A stretch of 64,000 nt of DNA from Sagittula sp. P11. Lineage in GTDB: Bacteria; Pseudomonadota; Alphaproteobacteria; Rhodobacterales; Rhodobacteraceae. The position numbers and the translations under genes were made by a program. The stretch spans positions 1 to 64,000 of the forward strand of contig NZ_CP021914.1 of the NCBI RefSeq assembly GCF_002814095.1, read 5' to 3'. The notes under the pieces are model-generated. The model saw only the letters and a program-made list of their open reading frames with translations. It searched no databases and was not told the origin of the DNA. Below, one piece after another: positions 9,259 to 29,820 of the stretch; within the stretch, counting starts at the first letter, position 1, and every line of letters begins with the position of its first letter.

Positions 9259-10293
9259 ATGTATCTGACCGTCCGCGACGCCACCAAGACCTATGGCACG
9301 TTCACCGCGCTCGACCGCGTTTCCATCGGGATCGACAAGGGTGAATTTGTCTGCCTGCTCGGGCCATCGGGCTGTGGAAAGACCACGCTGCTGCGGCTGA
9401 TCGCCGGTCTGACGGATCTGGACGGCGGAGAGATCACCCTCGAAGACGCGAACCTGTCACAGCTGCCCGCCCGCAAGCGCGGCTTCGGCATCGTGTTCCA
9501 GTCCTATTCCCTGTTCCCCAACATGACCGTGGCCGAGAACATCGGCTACGGGCTAAAGATCCGGGGCGCTGCGCCCGGCGACATCGCTGCGCGCGTTTCC
9601 GAACTGCTGGACCTCGTGAAGCTTCCGCAGGTCGCAGGCAAGATGCCCGGTCAGCTATCGGGCGGGCAGCAGCAGCGCATCGCACTGGCCCGGGCGATTG
9701 CCGTCGACCCGCGCGTTCTGCTGCTGGACGAGCCGCTTTCCGCACTCGACGCCAAGGTCCGCGCCGAACTGCGCGACGAGATCCGGCAGGTGCAGCGCGC
9801 CCTTGGCATTCCGACCCTGATGGTGACCCACGATCAGGAAGAGGCTCTGGCCCTTGCGGACAAGATCATCTGCATGAACCACGGCATCGTCGTGCAGGCT
9901 GGCACGCCGGAGGATCTGTACCACCGGCCTGCCACGCGGTTCGTCGCGGAGTTCATGGGCATCAGCAATCTGCTCCCGCCCGACCATGTTGCGCAGCTGT
10001 TCCCGGACCTTATGCCAACCCGGCCAGCGACGGACGTGGCGCAGCTTGCCTGCATCCGTCCGGAACAGATCGACCTCGTGCCACTGGCGGACGGCGCGGC
10101 CACGGTGCGCAGCATCAGCTTTCTCGGCAACCTGCGGCGGCTTCAGGTCGATACCGCAGTTGGCTCGTTGACCGTGGAAACCCATGGCGCGAACCCCTGC
10201 CGCGCGGGCGACCGTGTCGCGCTGACCGTTGCGCCGGACGCCTGCACATGGGTGATCGACGATGCGACCCCGCGCAAGGCAGTGACGGCATGA
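9259..10293 (+). CDS. ABC transporter ATP-binding protein (PotA/FbpC type)
   Basis: A 344-residue importer ATPase. Walker A is GPSGCGKTT at residues 35-43, the Q-loop follows 'GIVFQSYSLFP', the signature is LSGGQQQR at 133-140, and Walker B is LLLDEP at 154-159. A C-terminal TOBE-type extension covers about residues 275-340. The start at 9259 is chosen because homologues begin at this point and the upstream in-frame codons overlap the intercistronic hairpin region. The stop overlaps the permease start by ATGA. It energises uptake of the ligand of the upstream binding protein. Confidence 0.9.
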   Translation: MYLTVRDATKTYGTFTALDRVSIGIDKGEFVCLLGPSGCGKTTLLRLIAGLTDLDGGEITLEDANLSQLPARKRGFGIVFQSYSLFPNMTVAENIGYGLKIRGAAPGDIAARVSELLDLVKLPQVAGKMPGQLSGGQQQRIALARAIAVDPRVLLLDEPLSALDAKVRAELRDEIRQVQRALGIPTLMVTHDQEEALALADKIICMNHGIVVQAGTPEDLYHRPATRFVAEFMGISNLLPPDHVAQLFPDLMPTRPATDVAQLACIRPEQIDLVPLADGAATVRSISFLGNLRRLQVDTAVGSLTVETHGANPCRAGDRVALTVAPDACTWVIDDATPRKAVTA

Positions 10294-11959
10294 GTGCGTC
10301 CGACACGATACGGGTGCAGGCCAGGCGCAAGCCCCTCGATGCCGACCGCCTGCTGACCGCCGCTTGCGTCGGTCTGCCGCTTCTGGGGCTGATCCTGTTC
10401 TTTGCCTACCCGATGCTGATCGTCTTCCTGCGTTCGATCACGGTCGGCGACAGCTACGGCCTCGGCAACTATGCCGAGGTGCTTGGGTCTTCCGGGTTCT
10501 GGCGCGCGACGCAACATTCGCTGGTCATGGGGGCGGCGACCACGCTGGTCAGTGTGCTTCTGGGCTTCGTCATCGCGCATGGCCTTTATCGCTGTGCCTT
10601 TCCGGGCAAATGGCTGATCCGGGCGGTCATTGTCCTGCCGCTGCTGGCACCGTCCTTGGTTCAGGCGCTCGGGCTGATTTTCCTGCTGGGCCGCAACGGT
10701 GTCGTCAGCCGCGCGCTCGGCATCGAGATCGAGATCTACGGCTTCTGGGGTCTGCTGATCGCCAACACGCTCTATGCCTTGCCGCAGGCGGTGATGATCA
10801 TCGGTGCGGCGCTGGTGCTGCTGGATGCGCGCACCTACGAGGCAGCCGATGTGATGGGCGCCTCGCCCTGGCGGCAGTTTCGGGACCTGACGATCCCCTC
10901 GGCGCGCTTTGGTATCCTGAACGCAGGCTTCGTCTGCTTCACCATCACGATCACGGATTTCGGCAATGCGGCGGTGATCGGGGGGACTATTCGGTCTTGG
11001 CGACCGAGATCTACAGCCAGGTCATCGGCCAGCGAAATTTCAACATGGGGGCCGTGGTGGGGATCATGCTTCTGCTGCCCACGGTAATTTCCTACACCAT
11101 CGAACGTCAGGCGATGAAGCGGCAGCAGGCCGGGCAGACCACCGGACAGATGCCCTATCGCCCCGTCTTTGCGCCGTTGCGGGACCTGTCCATGGCGGCT
11201 CTGTCGCTGCTGATCTGTGCCTGTATCGTCGCGGTGATCGGCATCGTGGTCTATGCCAGCTTCGTCACGCTCTGGCCCTACAACATGGCGCTGTCGTTCA
11301 AGCATTACGACATCACGCTGGCGGGCGGGTATTCGTCGCTCTGGATGACCATCGTCATTTCGTTTGGCGCGGCGGCGGGCGGGACCGTGGCGGTGTTCTT
11401 GCTCGGGCTCGGGTTGCGGCGACTGCCGCAGGCGCTGGCCCAGCCGGTCCAGATCCTGGCCGCCATGCCGGCCGCCGTTCCGGGAATGGTGCTGGGCTTG
11501 GCTTATATCCTGACCTTCAACTCCACGGCGACACCGCTTTACCTGCTGTACGGCACCGCCGCACTGATCGGCATCGTCAATTTCTACCACTACCACACAC
11601 AGGGCTTCCTGACGGTGATGACCGGCTTTCGGCAGCTCCCCCCGGCGCTGGAGGAGGCCGCGGGCAGCCTTGGCGCCGGGCTGGGACGCACCGCCCGCGA
11701 TGTCGTCGCACCCTTCATCGCGCCGATGCTGATCTCGGTGTTCTTCTTCCTCTTCATGCGGTCCATGGTCACCCTGTCTGCCGTGGTGTTCCTGACGACA
11801 CCACAACTGAGCGTCGCCGCCGTGACGATCATGCGGCTGGACGATGCCGGGCTGACCTCGCAGGCTGCAGCCTTCTCGACCTGCGTGATGGCGGTTGTCT
11901 GCGGCGCGGTCCTGTCTATGAAAATGATCCTGGCGCTGATGCGGCGTCGCGGAGGCTGA
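10290..11959 (+). pseudogene. Two-domain ABC transporter permease (FbpB/PhnU-V fusion type), single-base frameshift
   Basis: A 2 x 6-span permease for the phosphonate/iron-type importer, expected length about 556 residues. The first frame runs from ATG 10290 to the segment 'TDFGNAAVIGG', then shifts. Homologous continuation 'DYSVLATEIYSQVIG' is in the next frame and runs intact to the stop at 11959. The break falls in a run of six G at 10980-10985; one extra G would restore a continuous gene. Both halves otherwise read as well-conserved membrane protein, with EAA-loop-like segments 'YEAADVMGASPWRQF' and 'LEEAAGSLGAG'. This is therefore either a homopolymer sequencing error or a very recent mutation. 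It ends 3 bases before the DeoR gene. Confidence 0.85.
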
Positions 11960-18673: not shown

Positions 18674-19603
18674 TCATCCAGCCACGACCGGAGCCCGGTT
18701 AGTGTTTACGCCGGTTGGCGCAGGTTGAGCAATCGCCCGGCGCGCGGAGCTTTCATCTCGCGCAGCGGGGCGGGCGATTGCGGTGGTCAGGGTCCGCGCG
18801 TAGGCAGCCGGGGTCTGGTAATCCAAGGCCGAATGGGGGCGCTCGGTGTTGTAGTCCGTAGCCCAGGCTGCGATCACGATCCGCGCATGGGCCAGATTGC
18901 GGAACATGGTCTCGTTGAGCAGCTCGTCGCGCATCCGGCCGTTGAAGCTTTCGACGAAACCGTTCTGCATCGGCTTGCCCGGCGCGATGTAGTGCCATTC
19001 GACCCGGTGCTCGGAACACCACCGCAGGATCGCGTTACTGGTCAGCTCCGTCCCATTATCGCTGACAATCATGCCGGGCTTGCCGCGGCGCTCGATCAGG
19101 GCCGTCAGTTCACGCGCGACACGGCGCCCTGAGATCGAGGTGTCCGGGATCGCCGCCAGGCATTCCCGGGTGACGTCGTCGACCACGTTGAGCACGCGGA
19201 AGCGCTGGCCGTTGGCGAACTGGTCATGGACGAAATCCAATGACCAACGGGCGTTCGGTCGCGCCTCGACCAGGATCGGTGCCCGCGTTCCGACCGCCTT
19301 GCGCCGCGCCTTCCGCTTGCGCACCGTCAGCCCTTCTTCGCGGTAGAGCCGATAGATCCGATTGATCCCCGAGGGCTCGCCCTCGCGGCGCAGCAGCACG
19401 AACAGGCGCCGGTAGCCGAACCGCCGACGCTCGTTGGCCAGGTCCCGCAACCGGCCGCGCAGAACCGTGTCCGGCGCGCGCTGAGATCGATAGCGGATCA
19501 TCGTGCGATCCGCGCCGACGATGTGGCAGGCCCGCCGTTCCGACAGGCCATGCTCAGCCTGAAGATAGGCGACGACTTCGCGCTTCACCGCGGGCCCTAC
19601 CAC
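18674..19603 (-). CDS. IS3-family transposase OrfB (DDE integrase)
   Basis: A 309-residue transposase subunit with the IS3 rve/DDE integrase core. The catalytic block is '[15 protein letters not shown]' (first Asp), '[11 protein letters not shown]' (second Asp) and '[16 protein letters not shown]' (Glu), in the spacing usual for IS407-like members. The N-terminal HTH_21 segment '[19 protein letters not shown]' is present. It opens at a GTG at 19603 in the -1 frame relative to orfA and is normally made as an OrfAB fusion by ribosomal slippage. All catalytic residues are present, so the element may be active. Confidence 0.92.
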
Positions 19604-19863
19604 TTTTTTGAAACCAGATCCTTCATCGCCGCCAGATCCAGCATCTGTTCGGCCAGAAGCTTCTTCAACTTGGCGTTCTCATCCTCAAGCGCCTTCAGCC
19701 GCTTGGCCTCTGATACCGTCATGCCACCGAACTTGGCCTTCCAGTTGTAGAAGGTGCCTTCCGACATGCCGTGCTTGCGGCATAGATCGGCGCACTTCGC
19801 GCCGGCCTCATGCTCGGCCAGGATGCCGATGATCTGCTCGTCCGTGAATCTCGTTCGCTTCAT
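19597..19863 (-). CDS. IS3-family transposase OrfA
   Basis: An 88-residue DNA-binding subunit: '[21 protein letters not shown]' start, HTH_8 type helix-turn-helix, then a C-terminal leucine-zipper-like stretch '[18 protein letters not shown]'. It overlaps orfB by 7 bases and lies just inside the right inverted repeat. The family and group (IS407-like) are clear from memory. Confidence 0.92.
19604..19610 (-). other. Programmed -1 frameshift site between orfA and orfB
   Basis: On the minus strand the orfA end contains six A (19609 down to 19604) just before GTGGTAG, after 'gtttc'. Slipping back one base on this A-run moves ribosomes from orfA into orfB, giving the OrfAB transposase. Confidence 0.6.
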
Positions 19864-19926
19864 TGTCCGTCCTCAGGTTGGGCCGGACTCTAATCGACGG
19901 TGGAGGAAAAATCCCGTGGCAGGTCA

Positions 19927-20215
19927 CGACCTCACGCCCCAGCGCGCAGACGATGGCCCAGCCTATGTCACCATCCTTGTGGTTGGCCACCTCATGGGTT
20001 TTGCATTGCCGGTCTTCTTCGAAAGCTTTCGGGACAATCCGCTTCTCGTGGCATGCCTGTTGTCAGCGGCTTCAATCGCTCTCGCGCTCCTGATGCTGCC
20101 GCCGGTCAAGGGCATGTTCGTGGCGTTTCAATGGGCCAAGGGGATGCACGGATTTGGCAGGACCGCTTCCGGTCCCGCCATCAGCCAAGAAACGCGCTGT
20201 GCTGGAGACTGTTGA
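19927..20215 (+). pseudogene. DUF983 family protein, 5'-truncated by IS element
   Basis: The frame after the right end of the IS reads 'QRADDGPAYVTILVVGHLMG' and then two hydrophobic spans, 'LLPPVKGMFVAFQWAKGMHGFG', and a stop at 20215. This is the C-terminal two-thirds of the DUF983 membrane protein common in Rhodobacteraceae. The N-terminal zinc-ribbon part (CPxCG..C..C) is missing and is not found on the far side of the IS. There is no start codon of its own. It overlaps the convergent MocR gene by 35 bases. Confidence 0.75.
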
Positions 20216-21551
20216 CCAGGAAATAGAGGTTCGCCCGCAAGGCTTCTCGCGACAGTGATCCGCCAAGGCACAGGCGCACTTCATCTCCCGGGGTTATTCC
20301 CACGCTGAACGCGTCTGACGGCATGATGCCGATCGGGCGCCCGGCCATCCGGGCGACGACGTCGGCCCTTCCGACGCCCTCCGGCAGGGACAGCCAGACG
20401 TTGAACGCATTCTCTGCCCCCCGAAAATCGAATCCTTCGAGGACTTCGCGCGCTATGGCCTGCCGGGCCGAGGTTTCTGACCGGATGAAGCGCCGGATCT
20501 GATCGGCGGTCCCGTCCTCGATCCATTGCGTTGCAAGCGCGGTGGTGATGGGCGACGGCATCACGGCCTGCACTTTGAGCGTCTGGCCGAGCGAATAGGC
20601 CTGCTTTCCGTTGGGCGCCACCGTGTAGGCCAGGCGCAGCCCGGCGCCGATGCATTTCGCCAGCCCTCCGATATGCCATGTCAGATCCGGCGCCGACACG
20701 GCAATCGGGGCAGGGGCCTTTGCCGGGATGAAGCCGTAGGCATCGTCCTCGATCAGCTGCAGCCCGTGTTTGTTCAGCACCTCCGAGATGGCCAGCCTCC
20801 GGTCCGTGGGGATCGTGAGCGTCGTCGGGTTCTGAAGCGTCGGGTTGAGATAAAGCGCCTTGGGCCCGTGCGTCCGGATCGCGTCCGCCAGGGCGTCGGG
20901 CAAGATACCATCCTTGTCCATCTCGATTCCGACAAGGTTCAGGCCCCGCCGCGATGCGATGTTGCGGAAGCCCGGATAGGTGATCTGTTCACACAGGATG
21001 GTGTCGCCGGGCTCTGTCAGGATCGTCAGGATGGCGCAGATCGTGCTGTGCGCGCCCGGTGAAATGACCAGACGTGCGCTGCTGGGGATCATGCCGCGAA
21101 GGCTAAGCCAAGTTGACGCCGCCGCCTTGTCCTTGTCGGAGCCGGTCGAGGATTGGTAGCGCAGCAGCTGCAGAAGATTGGCAGATACGTAATCCAGTCC
21201 GGCTCGCATGTTGGCGATCAGGCCGGGGTCGGTGGGCTCCGGTGGCAGGTTCATCGACAGGTCTTCATCGGCGAGGCGCAGCGGGTCGGGACCGTTGGGG
21301 GCCTCGGTCGGTTTGGAGATGAATGTGCCGCGTCCCACGTGGCTGGTGACAAGGCCGCGGGACTGCGCCTCGCTGTAGCCGCGCGACACGGTGGTGAAGT
21401 CGATGCCCAACTGTTTCGCAAGCATCCGCTGGGGCGGCAGCCTGGTGCCCGGGGACAGTCGCCCGTCGCGGACGTCTTTTTCTATCGCGTCGGCGATTGC
21501 GATGTAGCGTGGCTTGCCGCTCGTTTCGGCCCGTGGCGTCCAGTCAGTCAT
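20181..21551 (-). CDS. MocR/GntR-type PLP-fold transcriptional regulator
   Basis: A 456-residue regulator with an N-terminal GntR winged helix (residues about 15-78, 'LPPQRMLAKQLGIDFTTVSRGY') joined to a fold-I aminotransferase domain. PLP-site residues are conserved: 'NPTLQNPTT' near 236-244, 'EDDAYGF' at 268-274 and the Schiff-base lysine Lys299 in 'GGLAKCIGAGLRLAY'. The start at 21551 is preferred; 45 upstream in-frame residues are low-complexity and untypical. It is divergent from the Nit1C cluster with a 275-base AT-rich intergenic region and is the likely regulator of that cluster. MocR proteins generally sense amino compounds or PLP. Confidence 0.9.
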   Translation of the reverse strand: MTDWTPRAETSGKPRYIAIADAIEKDVRDGRLSPGTRLPPQRMLAKQLGIDFTTVSRGYSEAQSRGLVTSHVGRGTFISKPTEAPNGPDPLRLADEDLSMNLPPEPTDPGLIANMRAGLDYVSANLLQLLRYQSSTGSDKDKAAASTWLSLRGMIPSSARLVISPGAHSTICAILTILTEPGDTILCEQITYPGFRNIASRRGLNLVGIEMDKDGILPDALADAIRTHGPKALYLNPTLQNPTTLTIPTDRRLAISEVLNKHGLQLIEDDAYGFIPAKAPAPIAVSAPDLTWHIGGLAKCIGAGLRLAYTVAPNGKQAYSLGQTLKVQAVMPSPITTALATQWIEDGTADQIRRFIRSETSARQAIAREVLEGFDFRGAENAFNVWLSLPEGVGRADVVARMAGRPIGIMPSDAFSVGITPGDEVRLCLGGSLSREALRANLYFLVNSLQHSAFLG

Positions 21552-21730
21552 GTCGTTCTCCGTTCTGAGGCGTTGATAGCCAATGATTCGGGGGAATTGA
21601 AGCGCATTGTATGGATGCGACGGATTGCGGAAGGTGCGGCAGCAGCGACAGCGAGGAGCGGATTGATTTTCCGCGGATAATTTCACCGGAAATTGCGGGC
21701 TCTGCCTAATAACACGACCTTTGGCCGCTT

Positions 21731-21768
21731 TATTGTATGCAAAAATGTAGCATAAATGAATGTTGTAT
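21731..21768. promoter_or_regulatory. Candidate MocR operator/promoter of the Nit1C cluster
   Basis: The AT-rich core of the intergenic region holds an inverted repeat TATGC-N9-GCATA (21736-21754). It also holds a direct repeat TTGTAT at 21733-21738 and 21763-21768, spaced 30 bases, about three helical turns. Spaced direct repeats are usual for MocR regulators. The 11-mer TATTGTATGCA at 21731 recurs upstream of the gene at 28765. Confidence 0.45.
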
Positions 21769-21826: not shown

Positions 21827-22309
21827 ATGCCCGAAGTTACCAAAGAAGCGCATAAGGACGGCGATTTCTTCGTAAACTACGAAGAAAAGGTCTTCGAAGA
21901 CGTCAAGGCCGACGAAGGGGAGAAGGCACTTGTGACCTTCCATACGGTGGCCTTCGAAGGGTCCATCGGTTTGGTCAACATTCTGCAGGCAATTCGTCTG
22001 CAACGCAAAGGATTCGAGACCTCGATCCTGCTTTACGGCCCCGGCGTCACCCTCGGCATCCAGCGTGGTTTCCCGACACTTGGCGACGAAGCCTTCCCCG
22101 GCCACCAGAACTTTGCCGCCAATCTCAAGAAGTTCATGGCCGAGGGCGGCAAGATCTACGCCTGCCGCTTTGCCCTGCAGGCGCTCTACGGTCATGGCGA
22201 ACCCTCGCTGCTGCCCGGGATCACTCCGATTGCGCCTCAGGACGTGCTCGATTGCATCCTTCTGCACCGCAAGGACAACGCCTTCATCCTCGACACCTGG
22301 ACGGTGTGA
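21827..22309 (+). CDS. MSMEG_0572/Sll0783-family protein (Nit1C cluster)
   Basis: A 160-residue protein of the DsrE-like MSMEG_0572 family, the marker small protein of Nit1C clusters. Recognisable stretches are '[27 protein letters not shown]', '[17 protein letters not shown]' and the C-terminal '[17 protein letters not shown]'. It has no signal peptide or membrane span. The start at 21827 has AGGAGA 6 bases upstream; a GTG at 21809 in frame is less likely. It is the first gene of the operon. Homologues are described as nitrogen-starvation-responsive, and the biochemical function is unknown. Confidence 0.88.
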
Positions 22310-22381
22310 GACATGCGGAGCCGTGCCGGTCAGCGGCGCGGCTCCGATCCTTTGCTCCACGATAAGGAAGGACCAGGGACC

Positions 22382-23376
22382 ATGAGAACCGACACCATAC
22401 GCGCCGCCGCGGTGCAGATCGCGCCGGACCTGACGGGCCGTGCGGGCACCATCGAGCGGGTGCTGAATGCCATCGCCGAAGCCGCCGAGAAAGGTGCGGA
22501 GTTCATCGTCTTTCCGGAAACCTTCGTGCCTTATTACCCCTATTTCTCTTTCGTGCTGCCCCCGTGCAACAGGGCGCGGCACATCTGGAGCTCTATGATC
22601 AGGCGGTGGTCGTGCCCTCGCCGGAAACCCAGGCCGTGGCCGAGGCTGCGCGCAAGCGCGGCGTTGTCGTCGTGCTGGGCGTGAACGAGCGCGACCATGG
22701 CTCCCTTTACAACACGCAGCTCATCTTCGATGCCGACGGCAGCCTTGCGCTGAAGCGCCGCAAGATCACGCCGACTTACCATGAGCGCATGGTCTGGGGG
22801 CAGGGCGACGGGGCCGGGCTGAAGGTCGTTGAGACCAAAGTCGGCCGCGTCGGCGCTCTGGCCTGTTGGGAGCATTACAACCCGCTCGCCCGTTACGCGC
22901 TGATGACCCAGCACGAGGAAATTCACGCGGCGCATTTCCCTGGCTCTCTGGTCGGTCCGATCTTTGGCGAACAGATCGAGGTCACGATGCGCCACCACGC
23001 GCTCGAGGCGGGATGCTTTGTGGTCAACGCCACCGGCTGGCTGACCGAAGAGCAGATCCAGTCGCTGCATCCCGATCCGAAACTGCAGAAAGCCATGCGC
23101 GACGGCTGCATGACCTGCATCATCTCGCCCGAAGGTCGCCACCTCGCCCCGCCGTTGACCGAGGGCGAAGGCATCCTGATCGCCGATCTGGACATGAAGC
23201 TGATCACCAAGCGCAAGCGCATGATGGACAGCGTCGGCCACTATGCCCGGCCAGAGCTGCTGCACCTCGTGCATGACAGGCGGCCCGCCGAAACACGCGT
23301 GGCCTTTGAGGCCGCCGCCGTGCCGCACCCTCCCGCCCAAGGCGATCTCGACGAAAAGGAACCGAGCCATGTCTGA
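22382..23376 (+). pseudogene. nit1C: Branch-1 nitrilase of Nit1C cluster, single-base frameshift
   Basis: A carbon-nitrogen hydrolase, expected about 331 residues. The first frame (ATG 22382) carries the catalytic Glu46 in '[14 protein letters not shown]'. The frame then breaks in a run of five C (22559-22563); one more C joins it to the second frame, which starts '[13 protein letters not shown]'. That frame contains the catalytic lysine segment '[15 protein letters not shown]' and the nucleophile Cys in '[12 protein letters not shown]'. All triad residues survive on both sides. The break is therefore either a homopolymer error or a very recent lesion. The 3' end overlaps the radical SAM gene by 8 bases. 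Nit1C nitrilases are linked to growth on cyanide. Confidence 0.88.
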
Positions 23377-24472
23377 TGCCGACCTGATCAACGATCTGCA
23401 ATCCCACGGCATGCGGCTGGTCGACCCGCGGGCTGGCCACGAGGCGCGGCGCGGCGGGGCAGGGCCCTCGGACCACAAGGCCATCACAATCGGCGAAACG
23501 ACCGTGATGGTCCCGGTGCACACCGCGCCTGCCTTCGAGTCTCCGTTTCTGGTCGAGCCGCCGGATGCGGGCGGGGAGGCCCGTGTGACCCGTGACGGCA
23601 TCGAGATCGCCAAGGTGCGCTTTCCCACGCGGCCGAGGTTCTACGACCTGAAGACCGCAGACGGCATTCCTTACAGCCAGATCGCCGTCCTGCATTCGCG
23701 TGACGTTCTGGCGACGACCGTGCTGCAGACCTGCATCCGTTACGAAAGCCGCAAGAAGACCTGCCAGTTCTGTGCCATCGGCCAGAGCCTCGCCGCCGGG
23801 CGCACCATCGCCCACAAGACGCCCGAACAGCTTGCCGAGGTCGCCAAGGCCGCCGTCGAGCTGGACGGCGTGAAGCACATGGTGCTGACCACCGGCACGC
23901 CGAGGGGCAAGGATCGCGGTGCGGCGGTCATGGTAGACAGCGCCCGCGCCATCAAGGCCGCCGTCGACCTGCCCTTGCAGGGCCAGTGCGAGCCGCCCGA
24001 CGACGACATCTGGCACCAGCGGATGAAGGATGCCGGGATCGACGCGCTTGGCATGCATCTGGAGGCGGTCACGCAGGAGGTGCGCGAGCGGATCATGCCG
24101 GGTAAGGCCACCGTGCCGCTGGAGAAATACATGTCCAGCTTCGAGGCGGCGGTGAAGGTGTTTGGCCGCGCGCAGGTCTCCACCTACATCCTCGCCGGTC
24201 TCGGCGACACGCGAGAGGCGATCCTCGAGATGGGGCAGAAGCTGTGCGACATGGGCGTCTATCCCTTTGTCGTGCCGTTTGTGCCAATCTCGGGCACGCC
24301 GCTCGAAAGCCATCCGGCTCCGAAGCCCGAATTCATGGCCTCGATCCTGCGCCCGCTGGGCGAGATGATCGTACGCGCGGGCATCCGGTCCGAAGACATC
24401 AAGGCCGGGTGCGGCAAATGCGGCGCGTGTTCGGCCCTGTCGACCTATGAAAAGCTGAAGGTGCCGGCATGA
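23369..24472 (+). CDS. MSMEG_0568-family radical SAM protein (Nit1C cluster)
   Basis: A 367-residue radical SAM enzyme. The cluster-binding cysteines appear at Cys122, Cys132 and Cys135 ([14 protein letters not shown]), a CX9CX2C spacing instead of the standard CX3CX2C. SAM-binding features follow ('LTTGTPRG' GGE-like region near 171, 'LGMHLEAV' near 230). A further cysteine group CX2CX2C at 348-354 ('CGKCGAC') near the C-terminus could hold an auxiliary Fe-S cluster. This matches the MSMEG_0568 family, specific to Nit1C clusters, whose reaction is unknown. The start at 23369 overlaps the nitrilase end and the stop overlaps the next gene by ATGA. Confidence 0.9.
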
Positions 24473-25011
24473 TCGAGCTTGAGCCGCACCTGTTCCAATG
24501 CCCCGGCTACTACATCCGCGCGGCGTCAAAACCCTTCGAGGCGCGCGGAGCCGAGGCATTGCGCCGAAAGGTCTTCGTCGAGGAACAGGCGATCTTCAAG
24601 GACCACGACCGCGACGAGATCGACCTGGTCGCCACGCATTTGGTGGCACTGTCCACCTATGCGCACGAGGCCGATGAGGTGGTCGGCACGGTGCGCATCC
24701 ACGAGGACAGCCCGGGCCTCTGGTGGGGATCGCGGCTGGCGGTGGACTGCGATTTTCGGCAGGTCGGGCGGCTGGGGACCGAACTGATCCGCCTTGCGGT
24801 CTGCACGGCAAATGCGCGCGGCTGTCACACCTTTCTGGCGCATGTGCAGATACAGAACGTGCCGCTGTTCCGCCGGTTGAAATGGACCGTGCTGGAAGAG
24901 GTCGAACTGCACGGCGTGCCGCATGCACGCATGTCCGCCGACCTGGCGCATTATCCGCCCTGTGACGACCCGACGGCGGGCTGGTTCATGAAGCCGGGGC
25001 GGCGGGCATGA
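24469..25011 (+). CDS. GNAT-family acetyltransferase (MSMEG_0567 N-domain type, Nit1C cluster)
   Basis: A 180-residue GNAT-fold protein. Visible features are 'EALRRKVFVEEQAIFKDHDRD' (N-terminal GNAT helices) and the core 'VVGTVRIHED', followed by 'LGTELIRLAVCTANARGCHTFLAHVQIQNVPLF' containing the acetyl-CoA loop and the Asn common in GNAT site C. In some species this domain is fused to the AIR-synthase-like protein encoded next here, which supports a joint role. It overlaps both neighbours by 4 bases. It is specific to Nit1C clusters and its acceptor is unknown. Confidence 0.87.
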   Translation: MIELEPHLFQCPGYYIRAASKPFEARGAEALRRKVFVEEQAIFKDHDRDEIDLVATHLVALSTYAHEADEVVGTVRIHEDSPGLWWGSRLAVDCDFRQVGRLGTELIRLAVCTANARGCHTFLAHVQIQNVPLFRRLKWTVLEEVELHGVPHARMSADLAHYPPCDDPTAGWFMKPGRRA

Positions 25012-25982
25012 CCGAAACGCTGGCTGATATGGCCGAGGCTCTGCGCGCGCACCCGGCGATCCGGTCCAAGCTGGGGATTGCTCAGGCCGCCGGGATGCTG
25101 GGGCTGACCGCCAGCGCGCCCGGCCGCCCGGGCGACGATGCGGCGATGATCGAAACGGTGGAGGGCTTTGACCTCTTCGCGGGGGAGGGCTTCATCCCCG
25201 CCTTCGTTCAGGCCGACCCGTGGTTCGCGGGCTGGTGCGGGGTCATGGTGAACCTGTCGGATATCGCCGCGATGGGCGGTCGGGCCACGGCGCTGATCGA
25301 CCAGGTCTGGGCCCCGAATGCCGATCTTGCCGCGCCCTTGATGAAGGGGCTGCGTGATGCCGCCACGGCCTATGGCGTGCCTCTGGTAGGTGGCCATACC
25401 AACTTTGCGGCTGCCGAACTGAACCTCGCCGTGTCGGTGCTGGGCAAGGCCCGAGCACCTGTGACCAGCTTCGATGCCCTCCCCGGCGACGTGCTGCTGG
25501 CCGCCATCGACCACCGGGGCCGCTACGTGAACTTCGACAATTTCTGTGCCGCTCTCGACGCACCACACGACCGCCTGCGCGGTGATCTGGCGCTGTTGCC
25601 CTCGCTCGCCGAGGCAGGATTGCTGCGCGCTGGCAAAGACATCAGCCAGGGCGGCATCGCGGGGACTGCGCTCATGCTCTGCGAAAGCTCGGGTGTGGGT
25701 GCAGTGCTCGACCTCGACAGCATCCTGCCGCCCGCCGATGTGTCATTGCTGCGCTGGCTGCACAGCTTCCCCAGCTTCGGATTCCTGCTCTCTGTCGCGC
25801 CGGAGCACGCGGCCGAGGTCTGCCTTGCCTTCCGGGGGCGCGGCATCTGGGCCGACCCCATCGGCAGCATTACCGAAGGTTCCGACCTTCGCCTGCAACG
25901 CGACCATGAGACCGCATTGTTCTGGGACCATGCCCAGACACCATACTTGTCGCCGTCCCGAAAGGAGCGAGCCGATGCCTGA
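25008..25982 (+). CDS. AIR-synthase-related protein, Sll0787 family (Nit1C cluster)
   Basis: A 324-residue PurM/HypE/ThiL-like ATP-binding protein. The glycine-rich N-terminal region 'GDDAAMIET' (about residues 43-51), 'MVNLSDIAAMGGRATALID' and the C-terminal 'LRAGKDISQGGIAGTALML' fit the AIR-synthase superfamily, whose members phosphorylate or activate amide or carbonyl oxygens with ATP. It overlaps the GNAT gene by 4 bases and the MSMEG_0570-like gene by 8. The natural substrate is unknown. The ATP-dependent activation fold suggests that the cluster builds or modifies a nitrogen-containing product. Confidence 0.88.
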   Translation: MTETLADMAEALRAHPAIRSKLGIAQAAGMLGLTASAPGRPGDDAAMIETVEGFDLFAGEGFIPAFVQADPWFAGWCGVMVNLSDIAAMGGRATALIDQVWAPNADLAAPLMKGLRDAATAYGVPLVGGHTNFAAAELNLAVSVLGKARAPVTSFDALPGDVLLAAIDHRGRYVNFDNFCAALDAPHDRLRGDLALLPSLAEAGLLRAGKDISQGGIAGTALMLCESSGVGAVLDLDSILPPADVSLLRWLHSFPSFGFLLSVAPEHAAEVCLAFRGRGIWADPIGSITEGSDLRLQRDHETALFWDHAQTPYLSPSRKERADA

Positions 25983-26259
25983 GATGCACTGGACCCTGCG
26001 CTGGCCCGATGGCAGCGAAGAGCGCTGCTATTCCCCGTCGAGCGTCATCACCGAATTGTTCACTCCGGGGCAAAGCTACCCGCTGCCGGACTTCTTGCTG
26101 CGAGCCCGGATCGCGATGGAGCGCGCCTCTAACCGGGTCGAACGCAAATACGGCTTCGCCTGCTCTTCCGCGATGGATCAGCTCGACCGGATCGAACGGC
26201 GGGTCGCCGATTTCGAAGGGCAGCCCGACGCGCAGGTCACCTGCCTGTCGATCGCATGA
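25975..26259 (+). CDS. MSMEG_0570-family small protein (Nit1C cluster)
   Basis: A 94-residue soluble protein, 'MPEMHWTLRWPDGSEERCYSPS', then a basic helical stretch 'DFLLRARIAMERASNRVERKYGFACSSAMDQL'. It matches the MSMEG_0570 nitrogen-starvation-response family found only in Nit1C clusters. The conserved Cys in 'KYGFACSSAMDQL' is characteristic. Size and charge would suit a carrier or partner protein, but nothing is proven. The start at 25975 has AAAGGAG upstream and overlaps the previous stop by 8 bases. Confidence 0.85.
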   Translation: MPEMHWTLRWPDGSEERCYSPSSVITELFTPGQSYPLPDFLLRARIAMERASNRVERKYGFACSSAMDQLDRIERRVADFEGQPDAQVTCLSIA

Positions 26260-26273
26260 AAAGGACCGAGACC

Positions 26274-27554
26274 ATGAAAAACGCAAACATCCCGCATGTC
26301 GCTGTCGCGATTGTCGGCGGCGGTCAGGCCGGCCTTTCCGTGGCCTGTCAGCTGCAAAAGAAGGGCATCGAAAGCGTCGTCTTCGAACGCCACGAGAAAT
26401 TCCATTCCTGGCGTGTGAACCGGTGGGACAGCTTCTGCCTTGTCACGCCGAACTGGCAATGCCGTCTGCCCGGATTCCACTACGACAAGGAATTCGGCGG
26501 TACCGACCCTGACGGTTTCATGCTGCGCGAGGATATCACCACGTATCTCGACGCATTCGCCGCGACCTTCGAGCCGAACCTCTACGAACATGTCACGGTG
26601 ACCCGCATCGCGCATCATCCGCAGGGCGGGTACGTGGTCGAGACGACCATCGGCACATGGACCTGTGATCAGGTGGTGATCGCCACGGGCGGCTATGACA
26701 AGCCCATCGAGCCCGCCTATGCCGAGGCGCTGGACCCGACCATCGTGCAGATGCACTCGGTCGATTACCGCAACCCGGCGCAACTCCCGGAAGGCGACGT
26801 GCTGATCGTGGGCACCGGTCAATCCGGCGTGCAGATCATGGAGGATTTCGTAAGGGCAGGGCGGGGCGTACACCTTGCCGTCGGCCCCGCGCCGCGCAGC
26901 CCGCGCAAGTATCGCGGCCGCGACGCGACCGACTGGCTGCACGACGCCGGGCATTACAGGGTCACCATCGACACCCATCCCGACCCGGTGAAGGCGATGA
27001 CGCAGACCAACCACTACATGTCCGGCCGCGACGGCGGGAAGGAGATTGACCTGCGCAAGTGGCATGTGGATCACGGGGTCGAGCTGTATGGCTCTCTGGC
27101 GAACATGGACGGGCGCAGGCTGGAATTCCTGCCCGACCTCGCCAAGAACCTCGACGACGCCGACCGCAGCTACGTCGGCATCCGCGACCAGATCGACAGC
27201 TACATCGCCCGGACCGGCATCGACGCGCCCGAAGAGCCCCCTTTCGTCAAGGTCTGGGAGCCGGAATCCGAGCGCACGGAACTGGACATCAAGGAGGCCG
27301 GTATCGCGTCGGTCCTCTGGGCCATAGGGTTCCGTCCGGACTATTCCTGGATCGAAGTCGATGTCTTCGACGCGCGGGGCAAACCGAAGTTCCACCGCGG
27401 TGTCACGGATGTGCACGGTTTCCACTTCATCGGCCTGGGCTGGCTGAACACCTGGGGCTCGGGCCGGTTCCTGGGGATCGAGGAGGACAGCGCCTATCTT
27501 GCCAACCAGATCGCCGCGCAACTGAAGGATACCAGCAAGCGGGCGGTCGCCTGA
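26274..27554 (+). CDS. MSMEG_0569-family FAD-dependent oxidoreductase (Nit1C cluster)
   Basis: A 426-residue flavoprotein resembling Trk-type/flavin monooxygenases. The FAD site is 'VAIVGGGQAGLSVACQLQKKG' near the N-terminus with 'SWRVNRWDSFCLVTPNWQCRLPG' after it. A second dinucleotide motif 'VLIVGTGQSGVQIMEDFV' at about residue 178 should bind NAD(P)H, and an 'IGFRPDYSW' ATG-like segment lies near 360. ATG 26274 is preferred with AAAGGA upstream; ATG 26256 overlapping the previous stop is the alternative. It is the Nit1C flavoprotein, possibly hydroxylating a nitrogen or carbon of the pathway intermediate. Confidence 0.88.
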   Translation: MKNANIPHVAVAIVGGGQAGLSVACQLQKKGIESVVFERHEKFHSWRVNRWDSFCLVTPNWQCRLPGFHYDKEFGGTDPDGFMLREDITTYLDAFAATFEPNLYEHVTVTRIAHHPQGGYVVETTIGTWTCDQVVIATGGYDKPIEPAYAEALDPTIVQMHSVDYRNPAQLPEGDVLIVGTGQSGVQIMEDFVRAGRGVHLAVGPAPRSPRKYRGRDATDWLHDAGHYRVTIDTHPDPVKAMTQTNHYMSGRDGGKEIDLRKWHVDHGVELYGSLANMDGRRLEFLPDLAKNLDDADRSYVGIRDQIDSYIARTGIDAPEEPPFVKVWEPESERTELDIKEAGIASVLWAIGFRPDYSWIEVDVFDARGKPKFHRGVTDVHGFHFIGLGWLNTWGSGRFLGIEEDSAYLANQIAAQLKDTSKRAVA

Positions 27555-28354
27555 TGGCGGTCGTCGCCTTTGTGGCCCGCCCCGCGCCGGTCGAGATCTG
27601 CGCCGACCTACCGCTTGGCATGGCGCAGCTGTCGCCGGACGGGCTGTCCGAGCAATGGGTCCTGCGCTTTTGCGGCGATCAGCATTGGGCACTGATCGCC
27701 AAGGCGCTTGGCCAGCGCGAGGCGGTGTTCCACGCGGCAGACGGGCGGCCGGTCTACGCTGCGTTCTGCGCCACGTCGCTGAGTTTGCAGCCGTCCGCGT
27801 CGTTGCTGGGGCGCGATGTAAAGGTGGCATCCGTGCTGTTCGCAGTGACCGAGACGCGCACCGGGTCGCGGCACCGGCTGCTGGTCGACGGCGCGGTGAT
27901 TGCCGAATTGTCCATGATCTCGACCTTTGTCAGCCATGACACGCAAGGCTGCAACACGCGGATCTATCGCAACTCTGTCCTGGGCCAGATGCACCTGCCC
28001 CCGGCCGACCCGGCCCTGCTGGCGCTGGATCGTCAGGCGCGGGAAACGGCCCGTAGCCTGCGGGGAACCGTCGTGGCGCGGGCAACCGAGATCCATGTTG
28101 AACGCCCGGTGCCCGCGCTGGATTTCAATACCGTGGGGCTGCTGTATTTCCCGGCCTTCTCGCGCATCGCCACGACAGCCGCCCATGCGCGGGCAGGGGG
28201 CACTGGTCCAGTCCGGAAACGCGACGTCGTCTACCTCGGCAACCTCAATCAGGGCGATACCGTCCATGTCTTCGGCCACGGCCAGAAGATGCTCATGACC
28301 CGCGGCGACGGCACGCCGATAGCCGTGATCCGGACCGAAGTGGCGGCAGAATGA
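27554..28354 (+). CDS. Pnap_2097/LnmK-family biosynthetic protein (Nit1C cluster)
   Basis: A 266-residue protein with double hot-dog character, resembling the Pnap_2097 family related to the acyltransferase/decarboxylase LnmK. Recognisable stretches are 'GLSEQWVLRFCGDQHWALIA' at the start, 'HDTQGCNTRIYRNSV', 'DFNTVGLLYFPAFSRIA' and 'KRDVVYLGNLNQGDTVHV'. Its start overlaps the flavoprotein stop (TGATG), making it the last gene of the operon. LnmK acts on carrier-bound acyl groups. No acyl carrier protein or ligase is present here, so its role is open. Its presence argues that the cluster makes a product and does not only degrade nitriles. Confidence 0.8.
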   Translation: MAVVAFVARPAPVEICADLPLGMAQLSPDGLSEQWVLRFCGDQHWALIAKALGQREAVFHAADGRPVYAAFCATSLSLQPSASLLGRDVKVASVLFAVTETRTGSRHRLLVDGAVIAELSMISTFVSHDTQGCNTRIYRNSVLGQMHLPPADPALLALDRQARETARSLRGTVVARATEIHVERPVPALDFNTVGLLYFPAFSRIATTAAHARAGGTGPVRKRDVVYLGNLNQGDTVHVFGHGQKMLMTRGDGTPIAVIRTEVAAE

Positions 28355-28764
28355 AAGAAGGCAGCGCGCACCTCCGCGGTGCCGTGTCATGCCCAGGAAA
28401 TTTACTGTAGCACGCCTGCCGCCGCAACTTCACCGCGCATGACTGATCGGCACGGTGGGATTCGCCGCCGCGGTCCGCAATTCTTTTGGCCAGCCCAATC
28501 CGCTGATCGGTAAATCCGTGCGATCCATCGATCACGACAGGCGCCCCGAACTGATGATCGAAGTGCCTCGCAACGCCGGATGGAACGGCTGCCGGAGGGA
28601 GGGTAAGCGCTTGCGTCCCGGGGCCTGCGTGAAGCGATCCTTCAAGCGACGGTGCCTTGCAGAGGTGTATTCACCTTCGGTGGCCAGCGTTCATACTGAC
28701 ATATATTGTATGCAGATGGATACACAGGTATCCATTACCGTAGCCAGAGACTCGGGAGGCCGGT
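28355..28764. other. Intergenic region with promoter-like repeats
   Basis: A 410-base gap. The first 300 bases show nothing recognisable. The last 80 bases before 28765 are AT-rich with stacked repeats: CATAC-N11-GTATG (28692-28712), the 11-mer TATTGTATGCA (28704-28714) shared with the Nit1C promoter, and the palindrome at 28716-28735. Confidence 0.5.
28716..28735. promoter_or_regulatory. GntR-like palindromic operator
   Basis: ATGGATAC-acag-GTATCCAT, perfect 8-base arms, 29 bases upstream of the TTG start at 28765. The form resembles FadR-subfamily GntR operators, but no such regulator is adjacent. Confidence 0.5.
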
Positions 28765-29820
28765 TTGCGCATACATTTTCTGGATCACGTATTGCGTCGA
28801 CGGGCGCTGACCCTCGTCCTTGCGTCGATTGGAACGGCCCTGTTCTGGCTGGGCGGCCTGCCTTTGCCGTTTCTCTTCGGCCCGATGGCCTTCTGCCTGG
28901 CTGGGGCACTGGCGCATCTGCCCCTGAAGGGGTTCGGGCAGGTGTCCGTGGCGGCCCGCACGATTCTCGGCGTTGCCGTCGGTGCCTCCATCACGCCGGA
29001 CGTCATCGCCCAACTGCCCCGCATGGCTGTCTCCGTCGCGCTGATCCCGCTGTTCATTGCGGTGATCGCGCTGGTCGGTGTGCCGTTCTTCCGCAAGCTC
29101 TGGGGGTTCGACGGGCCCACCGCCTATTATGCCGCCATGCCGGGCGGCCTTCAGGACATGGTGATCTTTGGCACTGAGGCCGGGGCCAACCCGCGGGTGC
29201 TGTCACTTGTCCATGGCACGCGTGTGCTGATCATCGTGACGCTCGCCCCCTTCATCCTCGGTCACTTCTACGGCGTGGGTCTGACCAATCCCATCGGGGC
29301 GCCGGTCGCCGACCTGCCGGTGCATGAGCTGCTGATCATGGTCGCCGCCGCATGGATCGGCTGGAAGGGCGGGGAGCGCATCGGCCTGTTCGGCGCGTCG
29401 ATCCTTGGCCCGATGATCGTCACCGCAATCCTGTCCCTGACAGACGTGATCCATGCCCGCCCCCCGGCCGAAGCGATCCTCCTTGCGCAGTTCTTCATCG
29501 GCTGCGGGATCGGGGTGCAGTTCCTCGGCGTCACATGGAAGGAACTGACCCGCGTGGTCGCAGCGGGCATCGCCTACGTTATGGTATTGGCCGTGCTCGC
29601 GGCGGCCTTTTCGGGTGTCGTCACTTGGCTGGGACTGGGAGAGCCGGTTGCCGCTTTCCTTGCCTTCGCGCCCGGCGGTCAGGCCGAGATGACGGTGCTG
29701 GCCATCGTGACGGGCGCAGACCTCGGGTTTGTCATAACGCACCACCTGACCCGCATCGTCATCGTGATCGTCGGCGCGCCGGTGCTGGCAGCGATCATCG
29801 CCCGAAGACGGAAGGATTGA
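28765..29820 (+). CDS. AbrB-family integral membrane protein (PF05145-like)
   Basis: A 351-residue membrane protein with about ten hydrophobic spans in two tandem repeats. Each repeat carries the family signature: 'GFDGPTAYYAAMPGGLQDMV' near residue 112 and 'AFLAFAPGGQAEMTVLAI' near 295. This family is named AbrB or 'ammonia monooxygenase' in databases but is more likely a transporter; it often sits beside TctA-type or PrpF genes, as here. The TTG start has GGGAGG 5 bases upstream and no better ATG fits. The 3' end overlaps the convergent dehydrogenase gene by 26 bases. Confidence 0.85.
   Translation: MRIHFLDHVLRRRALTLVLASIGTALFWLGGLPLPFLFGPMAFCLAGALAHLPLKGFGQVSVAARTILGVAVGASITPDVIAQLPRMAVSVALIPLFIAVIALVGVPFFRKLWGFDGPTAYYAAMPGGLQDMVIFGTEAGANPRVLSLVHGTRVLIIVTLAPFILGHFYGVGLTNPIGAPVADLPVHELLIMVAAAWIGWKGGERIGLFGASILGPMIVTAILSLTDVIHARPPAEAILLAQFFIGCGIGVQFLGVTWKELTRVVAAGIAYVMVLAVLAAAFSGVVTWLGLGEPVAAFLAFAPGGQAEMTVLAIVTGADLGFVITHHLTRIVIVIVGAPVLAAIIARRRKD

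Follow-up and report, generated by a model that had tools for sequence, protein, structure and literature searches.

A Nit1C cluster with a divergent MocR-type regulator gene and a frameshifted nitrilase gene in the assembly of Sagittula sp. P11

The cluster and its genes

The 64,000-nucleotide stretch of Sagittula sp. P11 analysed here (contig NZ_CP021914.1, positions 1 to 64,000; hereafter the window) is part of contig 2 of a 5.58 Mb genome assembled in seven contigs. At 21827-28354 it carries a Nit1C gene cluster in its alphaproteobacterial form: a known cluster with uncharacterised regulation and partners, and one that is damaged in this assembly. An original prediction, made from the sequence alone, had described a complete Nit1C cluster of eight co-directional, mostly overlapping genes, one of them an added LnmK-like gene, together with a divergent MocR regulator. 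The eight genes are as follows, with scores against NCBIfam models.

21827-22309, plus strand: MSMEG_0572/Sll0783 protein (NitB); TIGR04044, 286.4 bits, cut-off 110
22382-23376, plus strand: Nit6803-type nitrilase gene (nitC) with a one-base frameshift near 22558; split TIGR04048 match
23369-24472, plus strand: MSMEG_0568 radical SAM protein (NitD); TIGR04043, 609.7 bits, cut-off 304
24469-25011, plus strand: MSMEG_0567 GNAT N-acyltransferase (NitE); TIGR04045, 220.9 bits, cut-off 68
25008-25982, plus strand: sll0787 AIR-synthase-like protein (NitF); TIGR04049, 398.6 bits, cut-off 321
25975-26259, plus strand: MSMEG_0570 protein (NitG); TIGR04042, 127.8 bits, cut-off 80
26256-27554, plus strand: MSMEG_0569 flavoprotein oxidoreductase (NitH); TIGR04046, 578.4 bits, cut-off 498
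27554-28354, plus strand: Pnap_2097/LnmK-like double hot-dog protein; TIGR04099, 201.8 bits, cut-off 125; LnmK family TIGR04098, 176.8 bits, cut-off 100

We verified these coordinates; all eight genes share a strand, and neighbours either overlap or are separated by short gaps. Profile searches bear out the predicted families, including the Pnap_2097/LnmK-like assignment, for which both models score over cut-off. The six core genes other than that for the nitrilase (0572, radical SAM, GNAT, AIR-like, 0570 and flavoprotein) stand in order beside it, all above their cut-offs, and the identification as Nit1C was right. "Complete" is incorrect for this assembly, because the nitrilase is split over two frames and neither piece reaches the family cut-off. 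Three of the cluster's families carry nitrogen-starvation names in NCBIfam. As far as the available excerpts of the source papers go, the seven core genes have the same order as nitBCDEFGH of Pseudomonas pseudoalcaligenes CECT5344 and others (PMC1199592, PMC11049912), whereas the Sagittula locus differs in having a MocR-type regulator rather than the sigma-54 type NitA, an extra LnmK-like gene, and a nitrilase gene that is frameshifted in the assembly. The MSMEG_0565 glycosyltransferase gene, which in rhizobial loci sits between the AIR-like and 0570 genes (identified in locus L056), is absent from that position in the window, the two genes overlapping; elsewhere in the genome it was not searched for. 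The seven-gene core, as described in the excerpted text of PMC1199592, does not include it as a requirement.

Several of the core proteins carry conserved features that bear on their possible chemistry. NitD has a Cx9CxxC motif and a C-terminal CxxCxxC motif, and its cysteines 122, 132, 135, 348, 351 and 354 are invariant in 22 of 22 aligned sequences. NitE also matches the FeeM family (PF21926, 33.9 bits against a cut-off of 27), and NitF belongs to the PurM/ThiL/SelD/HypE superfamily, with PDB profile matches to ThiL, PurL, SelD, PurM and HypE. Cys63 of NitG is conserved in 75 of 75 aligned sequences. We considered NitG as a hidden acyl carrier protein (ACP) and ruled this out: the serines of its GFACSSA segment vary (conserved in 76% and 57% of the 75), with the cysteine constant.

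The contig is probably a plasmid, because it encodes a plasmid-type RepA (repA) that scores over its family cut-off in a profile search. Of the plasmid records searched, p3 of Sagittula sp. MA-2 matches best, with 95.6% identity across the whole 10 kb query; its annotation includes nitrilase, DUF983, MocR-type, Pnap_2097 and AbrB genes. Genomes in which the radical SAM marker clears its cut-off, the source genome always included, number 1 among 4 in the genus, 9 among 248 in the family and 16 among 398 in the phylum; in the 3 other genomes of the genus it is below cut-off or absent. For comparison we used 79 loci, found by scanning with the radical SAM protein and drawn from the 80 best of 92 confirmed stretches; this set is biased toward close alphaproteobacterial relatives, so that the fractions given below are valid for it only. 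In one of them (L062, Rhizobium sp. RCAM05350) several Nit1C genes match only partially by tblastn, and that copy may be broken or misassembled. Two contigs labelled as a Bifidobacterium breve metagenome-assembled genome (L092, L093) hold a distant radical SAM relative, 44% identical, and are possibly contamination.

A MocR-type regulator and a conserved motif in the divergent gap

The predicted MocR regulator is present upstream of the cluster and divergent from it, and the gap between the two holds two copies of a conserved motif.

20181-21551, minus strand: MocR-type regulator, divergent; PF00392 (GntR DNA-binding) and PF00155 (aminotransferase-like)
21606-21615, plus strand: proposed operator, MocR-proximal copy, ATTGTATGGA; conserved gap motif
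21732-21741, plus strand: proposed operator, 0572-proximal copy, ATTGTATGCA; the consensus of 59 gaps is tttATTGTATGNATAtTtga

The protein has all the features of the MocR type (a GntR DNA-binding domain, an aminotransferase domain and a presumed pyridoxal phosphate (PLP) lysine), and a gene of equal length is annotated in MA-2. The column that we take, judging from the motif, to hold the PLP lysine is K in all 59 of the MocR proteins retained after filtering by length. The amino-compound signal suggested for the regulator is compatible with this lysine, which does not itself demonstrate such a signal. Of the 73 loci whose sequence extends at least 2 kb upstream of the first gene, 68 have an adjacent, divergent MocR. 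In the five exceptions, the match begins at residue 133 and so fails the distance test (L036), MocR lies 4.2 kb away (L082), or no MocR was found (L037, L083, L094). The LnmK-like gene, which the original prediction described as added, and MocR both belong to the usual layout in the mostly alphaproteobacterial loci compared rather than being specific to this strain. The nearest NCBIfam model for the regulator is EhuR (NF052286), and we rejected that identity at 392.5 bits, below the cut-off of 480.

Of the 71 MocR gaps (window included), 63 contain the pattern ATTGNATGNA; 100 resampled sets averaged 2.85 and never exceeded 8. The exact operator motif has 3 copies in the window, where 0.04 would be expected, and the form ATTGTATGNA has 7 copies in the 5.58 Mb genome (2 in the MocR gap, 1 at 28705 and 4 elsewhere), compared with none for a reversed control. 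From these sequence comparisons, MocR most likely binds the ATTGTATGNA sites in the shared gap and would control both itself and the cluster. The binding stretch proposed earlier, 21731-21768, does contain one conserved candidate site (21732-21741), but the second (21606-21615) lies outside it. The excerpted text of a 2005 study of the cluster (Podar 2005, PMC1199592) states that conserved regulator sites upstream of it could not be identified.

The third copy in the window, ATTGTATGCA at 28705, precedes an AbrB-like gene at 28765, which raises the question of whether that gene, too, belongs to the MocR regulon. The 10-base match is exact and is conserved in MA-2. However, the window site reads TGTATGCAGATGGATACA, with the remainder of the MocR consensus unmatched, and in Palleronia sp. 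LCG004 the AbrB gene has a GntR gene as its neighbour, with a palindrome TGTATCCTACTGGATACA in the gap. We consider regulation of the AbrB-like gene by MocR doubtful and, given the Palleronia gap, rejected it in favour of a GntR-type palindrome. Such a palindrome likely precedes the AbrB-like gene both at 28705-28725 of the window and at position 3916 of L173; neither the window nor L166 yielded a GntR gene like that of Palleronia.

The LnmK-like protein and the fold of NitB

Of the 72 loci with sufficient sequence, 51 have the LnmK-like gene 3′ of the flavoprotein gene and 21 lack it, although these counts, like those for DUF983 below, depend on tblastn limits and distant copies may escape. 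Since close relatives lack it, the gene appears to be optional. On a radical SAM tree of 74 rows its presence requires 9 changes, at least 5 of them on well-supported branches, compared with about 18 in shuffles, which points to several gains or losses; the reading we favour is several losses of an old member. Across the 398 phylum genomes, 6 encode a Pnap_2097 protein over cut-off and 16 the radical SAM protein; in 4 of these 16 (source genome included) Pnap_2097 lies on the same contig within 7 kb, and 2 further Pnap_2097 genomes do not have the radical SAM family.

A model of the protein, with a predicted local distance difference test score (pLDDT) of 92.2, is predicted to adopt the double hot-dog fold of LnmK. 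Its best PDB match is LnmK (4hzn, E 4.3e-15), and the seven top matches are LnmK entries, followed by acyl-ACP thioesterases. A profile built from 31 homologues likewise reaches LnmK at E 3.5e-15, compared with E 0.37 for a single-sequence search. Tyr68 is invariant in 31 of 31 aligned sequences (30 of the 51 relatives plus the window), and the profile maps it onto the tyrosine of 4hzo; the catalytic tyrosine of LnmK is Tyr62. LnmK itself is the methylmalonyl-CoA acyltransferase/decarboxylase of leinamycin biosynthesis (PDB 4hzn, 4hzo, 6x7l), which the window protein resembles in its modelled fold and tyrosine position; it differs in being about 19% identical and shorter (266 residues) and in belonging to a cluster that has no carrier-protein gene. 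No PP-binding (carrier-protein) match was found among the cluster proteins or the flanking proteins scanned, and carriers elsewhere in the genome were not searched for. In a polyketide-like setting, the LnmK gene of locus L172 has genes for a carrier protein, an HMG-CoA-synthase-like protein, an MbtH protein and a thioesterase next to it, and in L170 (3613-5022) a single open frame combines an LnmK-like stretch with hexapeptide and carrier-protein domains.

For NitB, the best Foldseek matches of a predicted model (pLDDT 78.6) are DsrE/YchN structures: of the 11 best rows, 7 bear the label DsrE, DsrEFH or YchN, 3 are of unknown function and the last is a designed cage. Cys113 is invariant in 28 of 28 aligned sequences and pairs with the cysteine of 3mc3, which is also the best sequence-profile match, at an E value of 0.81 that falls below significance. 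NitB has a predicted DsrE/YchN-like fold, shared with PDB 3mc3 and 1jx7. A YchN-like fold was tentatively assigned to this protein earlier, according to the part of that report available (Podar 2005, PMC1199592).

The nitrilase gene is split between two frames

The first piece of nitC lies in the frame 22382-22684 and matches TIGR04048 profile positions 2-63 (86.5 bits), and the second in the frame 22564-23376, matching positions 60-300 (461.8 bits); with a cut-off of 502.6, neither qualifies as an intact Nit6803 nitrilase, and the rest of the genome yields only two weak matches to this family, at about 25 bits each. In 83 of 83 other loci (some of which may be the same organism reached through two collections) the halves are in frame, and the source genome is the sole out-of-frame locus among 84. 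The MA-2 p3 nitrilase is a single open frame to which both window pieces align at 98 to 99%. Programmed frameshifting, which we considered, is unsupported given the 83 other loci.

We scanned the window and 400 kb of the same genome with a codon model, which placed the nitC frame switch at 22558. The scan, checked only against the nitC break, gave 121 same-strand switches, of which 6 passed a filter (upstream frame open for at least 25 further bases) and 2 were strong (upstream frame open for more than 100 bases). Both strong candidates, 22558 and 10980, are in the window, and none of that strength was found in the 400 kb sampled elsewhere. The switch near 10980, at a run of six G, splits an ABC-transporter-permease-like gene (10248-11959), so named from its own sequence and the preceding ABC ATPase gene rather than from a family search.

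We see an even chance that the nitC break is an assembly error and that the cluster is intact in the organism: it adjoins a run of C, the other strong candidate sits at the run of six G, nitC is in frame everywhere else that we compared it, and both halves appear to be under strong purifying selection relative to MA-2, with ratios of nonsynonymous to synonymous substitution rates (dN/dS) of 0.05 and 0.03. Set against this are the failure of the 400 kb sample, scanned with a method checked on one known break, to yield an equally strong candidate, and the quality of the genome (99.99% completeness, 0.07% contamination). The opposing explanation, that the cluster is decaying on its plasmid and that a real nitrilase mutation together with a real truncation of a neighbouring DUF983 gene beside an IS3 element records a recent loss of function, is a serious possibility that we put somewhat short of even odds. 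It would explain why two parts that MA-2 has whole carry lesions here, and it fits the absence of the radical SAM marker from the 3 other genomes of the genus, but the remaining genes compared (MocR left out) keep low dN/dS values against MA-2, from 0 to 0.18 apart from 0.40 for the LnmK-like gene at a synonymous divergence (dS) of 0.04, so any decay must be very recent. Since the nitrilase is frameshifted and DUF983 truncated, the pathway is probably impaired in the genome as assembled, unless the frameshift is an assembly error.

A DUF983 gene as a recurrent neighbour

The truncated gene lies on the far side of MocR from the cluster.

19916-20215, plus strand: DUF983 membrane-protein gene, 3′ remnant; the 5′ end is missing beside an IS3-type transposase pair

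The transposase pair occupies 18674-19863 and adjoins the truncated gene. Compared with MA-2, where the whole gene is annotated, the remnant is without its first 50 codons, and homology to MA-2 ends at window position 19927. By tblastn it matches L018 (E 1e-46, from residue 61 on) and L019 (E 5e-46, from residue 48 on), and Pfam DUF983 was assigned on the L019 homologue. A DUF983 gene accompanies the cluster in 20 of the 79 loci (two of these being short matches, L064 at a contig end and L068 over 31 residues); two plasmid relatives have it as well. It stands either at the tail of the MocR gene or directly after the LnmK-like gene. The MocR-gap motif occurs within 250 bases upstream of DUF983, or at its start, in 8 of the 17 members that clustering recovered, a count made with no chance control. 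DUF983 proteins have been placed in cytochrome oxidase operons and likened to COX4 in the excerpted text of one study (PMC4013037), which hints at a possible link to respiration under cyanide.

Proposed function and alternatives

We propose that this locus is a MocR-controlled, alphaproteobacterial Nit1C cluster whose intact pathway would obtain nitrogen by hydrolysing a small nitrile that it makes or captures, as in cyanide-assimilating Pseudomonas, and we give this reading a probability of roughly 0.55. With the cluster intact, the AIR-like enzyme NitF would use ATP to activate an amide or carbonyl, the scaffold would be remodelled by the radical SAM and flavin enzymes, the invariant cysteine of the DsrE-like NitB would bear a persulfide or a group derived from cyanide, acyl groups would come from the GNAT and LnmK-like enzymes, and NitC would hydrolyse the nitrile, so that the small nitrile made or captured would in the end release its nitrogen. 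HypE forms a nitrile group, and because NitF matches HypE, nitrile formation by NitF is a fair guess and no more. Because the cluster has no carrier protein, the LnmK-like enzyme would move its acyl group from a coenzyme A (CoA) thioester to a small molecule. The Pseudomonas Nit1C cluster is essential for cyanide assimilation, as stated in the available part of PMC11049912.

A number of points weigh against this proposal. The regulator of the Pseudomonas cluster is the sigma-54 type activator NitA and not MocR, again going by the excerpts of PMC11049912. Eight of the 71 MocR gaps do not have the motif (L060, L074, L075, L077, L078, L084, L085, L090), including all four betaproteobacterial gaps, where a different site is likely used; two of the four exact genomic copies of ATTGTATGNA outside the window lie inside longer open frames (L135, L137), and with four such copies the motif alone is no marker of targets. 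The confidence of the NitB model is modest, and the LnmK-like fold is similar to acyl-ACP thioesterases as well, so this enzyme may simply be a hydrolase. With its nitrilase broken, this copy of the cluster may do nothing. The identities of the genes, their conservation and that of the motif, and the lesions in this assembly are observed; MocR binding, every chemical step and substrate use are inferred.

The same genes could instead build an acylated nitrogenous molecule, perhaps nitrile- or sulfur-bearing, that serves as a signal or protectant under nitrogen limitation, with the nitrilase tailoring or recycling it and the LnmK-like enzyme altering its acyl part. The FeeM-like similarity of the GNAT protein, the LnmK fold and tyrosine, the combination of a radical SAM enzyme, a flavoprotein and a PurM-superfamily enzyme, and the three families named for nitrogen starvation all fit such a pathway, as do the 21 of 72 loci that lack the LnmK-like gene but retain the others, a pattern expected of a tailoring gene. 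We nevertheless regard it as possible but rather unlikely: the Pseudomonas cluster is reported, in the excerpts of PMC11049912, to be essential for growth on cyanide; there is no export gene among the cluster genes; and the literature on Nit1C and its families, as represented by titles, abstract openings and excerpts, names no product. A literature search for a biosynthetic cluster combining a radical SAM enzyme, a nitrilase and cyanide found nothing. A more elaborate version, which we think improbable, would have MocR control a route to an acylated, sulfur- or nitrile-bearing molecule through a DsrE-like sulfur carrier, a HypE-like ATP-driven nitrile former and a carrier-free LnmK enzyme, with an oxidase-linked DUF983 protein shielding respiration from released cyanide.

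Relation to known systems and significance

Two other MocR-type regulators invite comparison with that of the nitrile-hydrolysing pathway proposed here. EhuR, which regulates ectoine use, shares the GntR DNA-binding and aminotransferase-like parts, but the window protein scores below its cut-off (392.5 against 480) and is located with Nit1C genes. The MocR protein of the Pseudomonas cio/nit4 region is a putative repressor encoded, as here, divergently from a cyanide-linked nitrilase gene set; it adjoins cio genes and Nit4 rather than Nit1C, and we liken the two by description rather than by sequence, on the strength of excerpts (PMC8567248). In a literature set of titles, abstract openings and excerpts, outside which most subscription journals fall, we found no tie of Nit1C to MocR, LnmK or DUF983. 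What appears to be new is the conserved motif in the MocR gap, DUF983 as a recurrent neighbour, an LnmK-like protein with an invariant tyrosine in a cluster that has no carrier-protein gene, and the predicted DsrE/YchN fold of NitB.

Nit1C has been known since 2005, and it occurs in distant bacteria, with its chemistry still unsolved. A MocR gene and a gap motif that are conserved in the alphaproteobacterial loci compared provide a direct handle on the pathway, and the ligand of MocR should be an amino compound tied to it. The recurring LnmK-like and DUF983 partners narrow the chemistry and physiology that need explanation.

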